64,000 nt of DNA from Oscillospiraceae bacterium (GTDB lineage: Bacteria; Bacillota; Clostridia; Oscillospirales; Acutalibacteraceae): positions 248,001-312,000 of the forward strand of contig SVOT01000002.1 in assembly GCA_015066225.1 (NCBI GenBank). Direction: 5' to 3'. Positions 54,867 through 60,237 of this stretch are shown one piece after another. The position numbers and the translations under genes were made by a program. Within the stretch, counting starts at the first letter, position 1. Every line of letters starts with the position of its first letter. Below the pieces are notes generated by a model that was not told the DNA's origin, did not search any database, and saw only the letters and a program-made list of their open reading frames with translations.

Positions 54867-57077
54867 TCAAAACCTCTCAGCAAATTCACCGATAGCTTCA
54901 CTGAGTTCATTTTTTAGTTCATTGTCAAATTTTTCTGCAGTTTTCACCTTATCGGTAAGTTCTGCTTTTTCTTCGGTAAAATATTTATAGAGTTTCTTTT
55001 CAAAATCTTCCATATTTTCCGGAATGATTTTGTCAGCATATCCGGTGCTTACGGCAAAGATAAGAATTGCCTGCAAATAATCGGGAACGGTGTTGTATCT
55101 GTTCTGTTTTAGAGCCTCTGTGAGAAGTCTGCCGGAAGCAAGAGTGGCTTTTGTAGCATCGTCAATATCAGAACCGAACTGCATAAATTCAGCAAGTTCT
55201 CTGTACTGGGCAAGACGGGTGCGCAGAGAAGATGATATCTTTTTCATAACGGGATTCTGTGCCGCACCGCCTACACGAGAAACAGAAAGTCCTACGTTGA
55301 CAGCAGGTCTCTGACCTTCATTGAACAGTTCAGAGTCAAGAAAAATCTGTCCGTCAGTAATTGAAATAACATTGGTGGGAATATATGCTGATATATCACC
55401 TGCAAGTGTTTCGATAATCGGAAGTGCAGTTATTGAACCGCCTCCGAGATCTTCAGAAAGATGAGCTGCTCTTTCAAGAAGTCTTGAATGGAGATAAAAA
55501 ATATCACCGGGATAAGCTTCACGCCCTGACGGACGGTGAAGGAGAAGCGACAGTTCACGGTAAGCTACGGCATGTTTTGAAAGGTCATCATAAATAATCA
55601 GAACGTCCTTGCCGCTGTACATAAAATGTTCAGCTATAGCAGTAGCTGAGAAAGGCGCAATATACTGAAGAGCTGCTGAAGAAGACGCAGGCTCAGCAAC
55701 GATGATTGTATAATCAAGCGCTCCGTGAGATTTAAGCTTTTCTTTGATCTCTGCAACAAGTGTTTCTTTCTGACCTATTGCAACATATATACAGATTGTA
55801 TCCTTACCCTTCTGATTGATGATTGTATCAACAGCAATAGCTGTTTTGCCTGTTTGTCGGTCACCGATAATAAGTTCTCTCTGTCCTTTACCAATCGGAA
55901 CAAGAGCATCAATAGCCTTGATACCGGTATGGAGAGGTTTATTAACCGGAGCACGGTCAAGAATACTCGGTGCCTTGAATTCTATAGGTCTTACTTCATC
56001 ATAAGGGAGATAACCTTCCGCATCAATAGGATTACCGAGAGCATCCACCACTCTGCCAAGAAGGGCATTACCTACGGGAACAGATGCGATTCTGCCGACT
56101 CTTCTTACCGGAGTACCGCTTTCGATATGAGCAAAATCGCCGAAGATAACACAACCGATGCGATTCTGTTGAATATCGAGCACCATACCTCTTTCACCGC
56201 ATTCAAATTCAACGACCTCGCCGTACATAATATCGGCAAGACCATCCATCCAGCATATACCGTCTGAAACAGTAATAACTCTGCCAAGCTGAAATACGTG
56301 AATATGAGGTCTGTAGGACTCAGCCTTTTCCGAAAACTCCTGAATAAGATGACCTACGGTATCTGTTGTCAGGATAGGCTCGTGGTTAAGATTCTGTGAG
56401 AATTGATAAAGCTCCTCGGCAACTGTTCCGTCATATACCGTATCGCCGATTCTCAGTTTGAGTCCGCCAATAAGAGACGGGTCCTCAAGTACCCATAATG
56501 AGGTTTTACCGCCTACCTCGTCAAGCATCGCGGTTGTAACCTCATCAACCTTTTTAACAATAGCCTTATCAAGCGGATAAGCCGACATAAGGGTAACATA
56601 GAGAACATCGTGATGCTTTAAGTATGCCGTATCACCGGGAGTCAGTTTAATCTGCGGAAGAATTGCATCTATTATATTGGTATCAAGATCTCTTATTTCT
56701 TTTTGATATTTTTCATAAGAGAAAAGTTTTACGACATTTTCTCTCATAATTGAGAAAAGTTCTTTACGTGCATCCTCAATCATTTCACGGTGAATTTCGC
56801 GATGAATATGACCGCTAAATTCTTCTATCTGAGCAATTTTTTCATCAAGAACAGCTCTTGCAATTATAGTTTCTTCTGCACTGTTTTCGTCGTATTCTTC
56901 ATGCTGATACTCCTCGAAAACAGGCATAGCTATTTTTTCTGTAGCTTCCACTTCGTCAAGTTCACGATTGATTCTCTCAAAGCGGGAGTTAAAAATAGAC
57001 CTGATCTTTTTCCTTCCGAACAAAAACAGTATAATTGCAAGAATTATAAAGTTTATAATCACATATTGTATTTCCAT
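54867..57077 (-). CDS. atpA: b-like / delta-C-terminal-domain / alpha subunit fusion of ATP synthase
   Basis: 736 aa: N-terminal TM plus coiled coil; delta-like VLEDPSLIGGLKLRIGDTVYDGTVAEEL; then full alpha (GDRQTGKTAIAVDTI, DDLSKHAVAYRELSLLLHRPSGREAYPGD). Confidence 0.9.
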   Translation of the reverse strand: MEIQYVIINFIILAIILFLFGRKKIRSIFNSRFERINRELDEVEATEKIAMPVFEEYQHEEYDENSAEETIIARAVLDEKIAQIEEFSGHIHREIHREMIEDARKELFSIMRENVVKLFSYEKYQKEIRDLDTNIIDAILPQIKLTPGDTAYLKHHDVLYVTLMSAYPLDKAIVKKVDEVTTAMLDEVGGKTSLWVLEDPSLIGGLKLRIGDTVYDGTVAEELYQFSQNLNHEPILTTDTVGHLIQEFSEKAESYRPHIHVFQLGRVITVSDGICWMDGLADIMYGEVVEFECGERGMVLDIQQNRIGCVIFGDFAHIESGTPVRRVGRIASVPVGNALLGRVVDALGNPIDAEGYLPYDEVRPIEFKAPSILDRAPVNKPLHTGIKAIDALVPIGKGQRELIIGDRQTGKTAIAVDTIINQKGKDTICIYVAIGQKETLVAEIKEKLKSHGALDYTIIVAEPASSSAALQYIAPFSATAIAEHFMYSGKDVLIIYDDLSKHAVAYRELSLLLHRPSGREAYPGDIFYLHSRLLERAAHLSEDLGGGSITALPIIETLAGDISAYIPTNVISITDGQIFLDSELFNEGQRPAVNVGLSVSRVGGAAQNPVMKKISSSLRTRLAQYRELAEFMQFGSDIDDATKATLASGRLLTEALKQNRYNTVPDYLQAILIFAVSTGYADKIIPENMEDFEKKLYKYFTEEKAELTDKVKTAEKFDNELKNELSEAIGEFAERF

Positions 57078-59391: not shown

Positions 59392-59484
59392 AATGATAAA
59401 CAAGTCAGTCGTGTCAAATCTTTCCGAAAGGAATGCGACGATACATAAAAACTATTAAATTATATACAAAACTCTATTTTAAGC

Positions 59485-59531
59485 AAAAAAATTGAGCACT
59501 CACAGGTCAAATCCCTTATGAATACTCAATA
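59485..59531 (-). terminator. Intrinsic terminator at distal end of the tRNA-tail array
   Basis: Reverse strand ATTGAGTATTCATAAGGGatttgaCCTGTGAGTGCTCAAT (G-U tolerant stem) then TTTTTTT. Confidence 0.75.
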
Positions 59532-60161
59532 TGGTCCGAGTGGCGAGACTTGTGGGCTCTGCCCACAAATTTGCTTCGCAAATGCCCGATTGTGTTCGGC
59601 TTCGCCGAGGGAGTTCAAGTCTCGCCAAAAACTTTGAGAAAACAAAAAAACAAAGAGCAACCAAAAGGTTACTCTTTGTTTTTGGTCCGAGTGGCGAGAC
59701 TTGTGGGCTCTGCCCACAAATTTGCTTCGCAAATGCCCGATTGTGTTCGGCTTCGCCGAGGGAGTTCAAGTCTCGCCAAAAACTTTGAGAAAACAAAAAA
59801 ACAAAGAGTAACCAAAAGGTTACTCTTTGTTTTTGGTCCGAGTGGCGAGACTTGCAGGAGTGCTACGCACAGCCTGCAAGCAGTCTTATTGTATGTCCCT
59901 CGTGTCTCCGCCAAGGCGAACCGACACGAGATGGACTATTTCGTTCAAGTCTCGCCAAAAACTTTGAGAAAACAAAAAAATAACAGATAACCATTGGTTA
60001 TCTGTTATTTTTGGTCCGAGTGGCGAGACTTGTGGGCTCCGCCCACAAATTTGCTTCGCAAATGCCCGATTGTGTTCGGCTTCGCCGAGGGAGTTCAAGT
60101 CTCGCCAAAAACTTTGAGAAAACAAAAAAATAACAGATAACCAACGGTTATCTGTTATTTT
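59532..60161 (-). repeat. Tandem array of four tRNA-Pro 3'-end-bearing hairpin units
   Basis: Units begin (plus coordinates) at TGGTCCGAGTGGCGAGACTTG: 59532 (151 bp), 59683 (151 bp), 59834 (178 bp), 60012 (150 bp); the same sequence is the tRNA 3' end at 60162. Confidence 0.95.
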
Positions 60162-60237
60162 TGGTCCGAGTGGCGAGACTTGAACTCACGGCCTCTTGAC
60201 CCCCAGTCAAGCGCGCTACCAACTGCGCCACACCCGG
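60162..60237 (-). tRNA. tRNA-Pro (anticodon GGG), CCA encoded
   Basis: Reverse strand CCGGGTGTGGCGCAGTTGGTAGCGCGCTTGACTGGGGGTCAAGAGGCCGTGAGTTCAAGTCTCGCCACTCGGACCA; acceptor, D, anticodon and T arms all pair. Confidence 0.95.

Follow-up and report, generated by a model that had tools for sequence, protein, structure and literature searches.

The tRNA-Pro(GGG) gene in the window (the whole 64,000-nucleotide stretch of DNA analysed here, from a ruminant-gut bacterium) is followed by four units whose two arms reproduce parts of the tRNA itself, and homologous units were found behind some 20 tRNA kinds and tmRNA, in one genus (about 17 species) and in two others. The units share a defined architecture, their arms match the tRNA gene that they follow, and their helices covary among homologues. 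We think it probable, with moderate confidence, that they are non-autonomous, mostly gene-less and integrase-less cassettes that recombine at the T-arms of tRNA and tmRNA genes; in this proposal we infer a recombinase, a single-stranded substrate and a direction of events.

Anatomy of the array behind tRNA-Pro(GGG)

The array consists of four units of about 150-178 bp each (minus strand, 59532-60161) on the 3' side of the tRNA-Pro(GGG) gene, and these roughly 150-base inserts contain no genes. Units are lettered A to D from the tRNA outward and numbered 1 to 4 in plus-strand order. Their parts are given below, with the basis of each assignment in brackets.

60162-60237, minus strand: tRNA-Pro, anticodon GGG, the host gene whose T-arm is the proposed target (ARAGORN; Rfam tRNA 63.6 bits)
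60108-60161, minus strand: unit A, adjoining the tRNA, terminator and linker (inverted repeat I9 and T-run)
60091-60107, minus strand: unit A left arm TGGCGAGACTTGAACTC, reverse complement of the tRNA-Pro T-arm, with positions 51-63 at 60091-60103 (inverted repeat I7)
60033-60090, minus strand: unit A type-1 core (folding; covariation)
60076-60088, minus strand: unit A hairpin H1, GAA loop
60049-60063, minus strand: unit A hairpin H2, GAA loop
60031-60047, minus strand: unit A hairpin H3, GGA loop
60012-60032, minus strand: unit A right arm CAAGTCTCGCCACTCGGACCA, copy of the tRNA-Pro 3' end (exact match, 0 expected by chance)
59958-60011, minus strand: unit B terminator and linker (inverted repeat I4)
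59834-59957, minus strand: unit B, third along the plus strand (folding; exact tail match)
59943-59957, minus strand: unit B left arm
within 59834-59957, minus strand: unit B type-2 core with a GTCC..GGAC stem, of differing sequence but with the same closing stem
59834-59854, minus strand: unit B right arm, the tRNA 3' end
59779-59833, minus strand: unit C terminator and linker (inverted repeat I8)
59683-59778, minus strand: unit C, type-1 core (inverted repeats; exact tail match)
59762-59778, minus strand: unit C left arm
59683-59703, minus strand: unit C right arm
59628-59682, minus strand: unit D terminator and linker (inverted repeat I10)
59532-59627, minus strand: unit D, type-1 core, most distant from the tRNA (inverted repeats; folding; exact tail match)
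59611-59627, minus strand: unit D left arm
59532-59552, minus strand: unit D right arm

The 21-nt tRNA-Pro 3' end has five exact occurrences including that in the tRNA itself, and each unit ends in one of them. The initial annotation had described unit cores built from mini-hairpins and enclosed by a 12-bp stem (TGGCGAGACTTG/CAAGTCTCGCCA), and both are present: the minus strand of units 1, 2 and 4 carries TCGGC-GAA-GCCGA, ATTTGC-GAA-GCAAAT and TGTGGGC-AGA/GGA-GCCCACA, with the stem around them. What had been overlooked is that this stem represents, in both orientations, the 3' strand of the T-arm of the neighbouring tRNA-Pro, its left strand being the reverse complement of the T-arm and its right strand lying inside the 21-nt tRNA 3'-end copy, and that the repeat period of the array takes in a terminator hairpin as well as the complete tRNA 3'-end copy.

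Two other features of the window were recorded. The array ends in TATTGAGTATTCATAAGGGATTTGACC... (59482-59531, minus strand), which is also found at other tRNA loci (L053, L108), and in G011 a related end, TAGTGAGTATTCATAA, lies next to the gene of a large serine recombinase; these are probably the end of a different island family that cuts at CCA. At 54867-57077 (minus strand) a 736-aa frame of ATP synthase alpha type, extended by an additional N-terminal region, lies beside other ATP synthase subunits and is a possible subunit fusion.

Arms, folding and distribution of the units

A covariance model of the unit gave 26 matches in the genome of the window (G000), behind Pro, three Leu, three Ser, Gln, Met, Tyr, Lys, Glu and Arg tRNAs. 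The arms match their own tRNA in every one of these units and the core is shared, mostly of type 1 (CTCGSCGAAGSCGAACAYAATCG plus two further hairpins), with type-2 cores at Pro, Tyr and Glu tRNAs. An exact pattern search of GTDB genomes returned 74 stretches, all of which, except five chance matches, come from ruminant-gut Oscillospiraceae/Clostridia MAGs, and in a survey of 60 relatives the pattern was limited to the window's genus (17 genomes including G000). The covariance model added one more genus, in which Leu-GAG and Val-UAC show this layout, and inspection of Leu-GAG loci independently of the core added a third, whose arm is perfect and whose core differs. Searches of 50,697 phage and 72,556 plasmid records gave no match, nor did 2.9 million viral contigs, and a phage or plasmid origin was rejected on these searches.

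Related arrangements were also seen. In two or more genera (L046, L274, L120, L133) a type-3 core of about 200 bp (AAACAGTCCGGTGGACTGTTTT hairpin and others) is flanked by a reversed T-arm on one side and a tRNA tail on the other. At L089 (3640-4010, minus strand) a unit with a tmRNA-type tail has as its upstream neighbour the end of a recombinase-like open frame in place of the tmRNA gene, perhaps because an island has come between the two.

Across 49 anchored units the left arm is the complement of positions 51-63 of the unit's own tRNA, with a match of 0.92-1.00 per position, compared with 0.52-0.65 for random tRNAs at the variable positions, and its edges are sharp, the match dropping to 0.47 at positions 50 and 64. 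This 13-bp block, centred on position 57, consists of the 7-nt T-loop and the three T-stem pairs that flank it. Among the 57 units with a tRNA upstream, the left arm agrees with that tRNA at 13/13 positions in 40 and at 12/13 in 14 (at most one mismatch in 54), and the right end is the tail of the same tRNA, with at most one mismatch, in 47, the figure for other tRNAs being 2%. The left arm tracks even the T-arm allele within an isoacceptor, as seen for Pro-CGG (AAG..CTT versus GGG..CCC), Pro-GGG and Met; Pro-CGG arms have 0 mismatches to their own allele and 5 to the other. In Arg-ACG and Leu-GAG variants the right arm departs from the tRNA at 58 yet still follows it at 57, which suggests that bases up to 58 may belong to the element and that exchange would occur at or beyond 58/59.

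A fold with a closing stem and three triloop arms had been proposed for these units, together with selection on a folded single strand, and both ideas are supported. When the minimum free energy of each unit was compared with that of 200 dinucleotide shuffles, an excess of stability was found for DNA (z -4.8 to -5.5) and RNA (z -4.2 to -5.2) alike, and no shuffle equalled it. In an alignment of 48 homologues, 97.1% of the cells of the closing stem, H1, H2 and H3 are paired, both sides have changed in 15 of the 25 pairs, and the covariation score is 0.327; shuffling lowers it to 0.139 and sliding to 0.076 or less. The initial annotation had named the lack of both covariation and excess stability as the outcome that would refute its proposal, and this outcome did not occur. 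Covariation in the closing stem reflects the match of both arms to the tRNA; that of H1, H2 and H3 is independent of the stem.

The emphasis that the initial annotation placed on d(GCGAAGC) did not survive. The array holds 6 copies of the exact heptamer; the whole window holds 14 where 7.9 are expected, a count of 14 being reached by 5 of 100 shuffles, so that by itself it is unremarkable. The H2/H3 loops of homologues vary, with C(NNA)G triloops in 76 of 82 cases, GNA in 38 and TNC in none; it is thus the hairpins that are conserved, and d(GCGAAGC) was rejected as the conserved signal. Both strands fold about equally well and energy therefore cannot identify the folded strand. The NNA triloops and an excess of G.T over A.C pairs on the tRNA strand (22:5, mostly in one column, with many cells inherited together) would favour the tRNA strand as the one that folds.

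The conserved helices, the RNA z-scores above and the position of the units directly after tRNA genes might also be expected of a functional RNA, whereby a read-through or antisense transcript would pair with the T-arm and modulate tRNA processing or termination, the arms being kept by selection for pairing. We regard this as very unlikely: a terminator precedes the units, Rfam 15 gives only RNase P and the tRNA above the gathering cut-off in the whole window and the units match no family, units are present or absent at orthologous tRNAs, and a displaced 3' end with CCA would not be needed.

Insertion polymorphism, recombinases and a proposed mechanism

Comparison of congeners reveals precise insertion polymorphism, each difference being a gain or a precise loss. 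Leu-GAG carries 0, 1 or 2 units: in G014 the site is empty and the tRNA is followed by AACTCCACCTTTTCG..., while G000 has an additional 148 bp and G003 an additional 148 + 216 bp, each then continuing into the same downstream sequence. Lys-UUU carries 0 or 1 unit, being empty in G013 and filled by 140 bp in G017, with an identical 45-nt flank. The inserts duplicate the tRNA 3' end and bring their own terminator, and since old and new terminators differ (identity about 0.4 at Leu-GAG and Lys) they did not arise by tandem duplication of the end already in place. In some congeners the Pro-GGG locus has a further unit, located between the tRNA and an older terminator or unit, and the Pro arrays of G020 and G008 contain an extra tRNA-proximal unit relative to G013, as a gain there or a loss in G013; in integrons it is at the anchored end that new cassettes enter.

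Replication slippage or template switching, by which tRNA 3' ends would be duplicated, quasi-palindrome correction would create the inverted arms and generic hairpin repeats would be trapped, sits poorly with the unlike first and second terminators of these insertion pairs, with the recurrence of one three-hairpin core and exact arm limits at many tRNAs, and with left-arm bases 51-56, which have no right-arm partner for correction. Several tandem units do have near-identical terminators, and hairpin-rich repeats are common in the window's genus, but we give this explanation hardly any credence.

Cores that stand at one tRNA kind but come from different genomes have a median likeness of 0.85, versus 0.74 for within-genome or unrelated pairs, which argues that hops of the core between tRNA kinds are rare or old; on this comparison the units appear to be mostly tRNA-bound lineages. 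Identical H2-H3 stretches do occur at different tRNAs. Concerted evolution within a genome was rejected, as within-genome cores are no more alike than those between genomes. A hybrid unit at L049 (1-320), in which a Leu-CAA terminator and linker are fused to an Arg-ACG arm and tail, suggests that units belonging to different tRNAs have exchanged parts, unless it is a misassembly.

Genes are absent from nearly all cassettes. At tRNA-Met a unit forms the end of a 2.3-kb segment (L029) that encodes an amidase and a DUF4760 protein, at Leu-UAA units flank a 9.7-kb segment with a two-component system, an ABC exporter and DUF5677, and a 1.25-kb single-gene segment beside the units of a Thr-CGU array ends in a longer tRNA repeat that has no core. 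Apart from the units, a further hairpin-array family stands behind tRNA genes, often directly after the terminator, with AACTAAATCCACCC...GTGAAAT, GTGATATC or TATGTAATC spaced mini-hairpins (L008 at Gln, L018 at Tyr, L122, L124, L126, L153). Fragments of tRNA anticodon arms or 5' halves also lie about 30 to >100 nt upstream of intact tRNAs (G006:C25:15912-15936, G013:C42:3151-3173, G020:C25:184-204, and similarly near Leu and Pro tRNAs).

No integrase gene lies inside the 140-220-bp units. G000 (95% complete) encodes a single tyrosine recombinase, XerC/D-like (222/197 bits), outside the units and adjoining the gene of a membrane protein that we read as SpoIIM-like; it scores 83 bits against the integron integrase model TIGR02249, whose cut-off is 265, and looks like a housekeeping XerC/D. 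Serine recombinases are absent from G000 and G008, and Y1 transposase (PF01797) was found 0 times in G000, G008, G006 and G013, with positive results in control genomes; G008 nonetheless has 11 units, as does G020 (98% complete), which has one tyrosine recombinase. With neither a serine recombinase nor a Y1 transposase and only the one Xer-like protein in G000, the units are non-autonomous, and the actor would be the Xer protein, a visiting enzyme or one since lost. We rejected an encoded tyrosine integrase, given that G000 has only the Xer-like protein and G020 a single tyrosine recombinase despite its 11 units, as well as a serine recombinase, given its absence from G000 and G008. Membership of the IS200/REP systems, which had been suggested initially, falls with the lack of a Y1 transposase in the genome and with the strict placement of units behind tRNA/tmRNA genes.

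The units could alternatively be minimal remnants or satellites of ordinary tRNA-targeting integrase islands, deleted internally down to the two attachment ends; visiting integrases of the tyrosine or large serine type would move them as duplex att sites, and the hairpins would be integrase or directionality-factor sites. An integrase typically recognizes one tRNA or a small number of them, whereas here the same core stands at about 20 tRNA kinds and tmRNA; an exact inverted 51-63 arm and covarying helices are unexpected for duplex att sites, and G000 and G008 are rich in units without a serine recombinase. We consider this origin unlikely, although tRNA 3'-end duplication is a hallmark of such islands (PMC4383910), congeners contain many integrases, and integrase-less islands with 45-bp tRNA repeats occur at the same tRNA-Pro. 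One such case is a tandem pair of integrase-less 6.5-6.8 kb islands at tRNA-Pro in G018 (L178), each ending in a 45-bp tRNA-Pro repeat, with a unit after the pair. Tyrosine-recombinase islands at tRNA-Pro were rejected as autonomous parents, as unit-like ends were found neither at their tRNA (L175) nor in the integrase-less islands.

The reading that we prefer, cassettes that recombine at T-arms, can be formulated as follows. On the tRNA strand, a cassette comprises the tRNA 3' end (57-76, CCA), its own terminator, a linker, a reversed T-arm (complement of 63-51), the three-hairpin core and a junction to the displaced tRNA 3' end. Because it begins with a tRNA 3' end and terminator, insertion would restore the tRNA, supply it with a new terminator and push the old 3' end downstream; repeated insertion, or unequal exchange, would yield an array. 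The left arm would pair with the displaced 3' end (57-63), closing a folded single strand with H1-H3 inside, and a putative trans-acting site-specific recombinase could use this strand as an attC-like partner of the duplex T-arm, in which the 7-nt T-loop would lie between 3-bp inverted half-sites, centred on 57. The recombination substrate envisaged in the initial annotation fits with precise insertion at tRNA ends, its likeness to attC holding as an analogy only. Against this reading, no excised or circular form of a unit was seen, the one recombinase of G000 has the look of a housekeeping enzyme, and the likeness of cores suggests that moves between tRNA kinds are rare or old. More tentatively, one might picture an integron-like platform in which all tRNA/tmRNA T-arms would be anchors for folded cassettes with the reversed T-arm as guide or pairing arm, a trans recombinase (possibly the single Xer) would act on them, the tRNA would be rebuilt with a new terminator, and genes could be carried.

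Comparison with known systems

Integron attC sites are characterized by a GTTRRRY core and a RYYYAAC inverse core site (PMC3053210). Like attC sites and CALINs, the units are imperfect inverted repeats that fold as single strands, their structure conserved and their loops variable, and form cassettes in one orientation at a fixed anchor, in CALIN-like arrays without an integrase. They differ in their anchor, which is attI in integrons and any tRNA/tmRNA T-arm here, and in lacking GTTRRRY/RYYYAAC, since their left arms end in a conserved GAAC (G before AAC) and the right junction has no GTT. In addition, they are three-armed whereas attC is single-stem, their cassettes are nearly all gene-less and rebuild a tRNA, and G000 has no IntI, although that absence alone would be compatible with a CALIN. 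Islands targeted to tRNA genes regenerate the tRNA and leave a displaced tRNA fragment (PMC4383910), and the units share with Islander-type tRNA/tmRNA islands the regenerated tRNA, the displaced 3' fragment, tandem insertion and the T-loop region as site. In contrast to these islands, however, they are about 150 bp long, lack an integrase, contain an inverted T-arm copy and keep a folded core across many tRNA kinds. REP/REPtron (RAYT) and IS200/IS605 elements are likewise non-autonomous copies with mini-hairpins that act as single strands, but G000 has no Y1 transposase and the units are tRNA-specific with a long tRNA direct repeat. Short, non-coding, non-autonomous and palindromic as MITEs are, the units differ from them in inserting site-specifically at tRNA ends, with arms that follow the target sequence.

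No published description of such units was found in open-access full text, subscription papers lying outside this scope, and our data point to a tRNA-targeting mobile cassette of a kind so far undescribed. If this is true, it would be a cassette system that uses the tRNA gene set as insertion anchors, swaps tRNA terminators without harm to the tRNA, and bridges tRNA-targeted islands and folded-site (integron-like) recombination. The units offer a testable case of an element whose arms follow its target, and they explain short tRNA-tail repeats that could mislead tRNA/ORF annotation in rumen genomes. With no internal integrase, no GTTRRRY/RYYYAAC and no IntI, they work like islands and integrons and are classed as a member of neither; their anatomy is closest to a cross of tRNA-targeted islands and integron cassettes with a folded attC.
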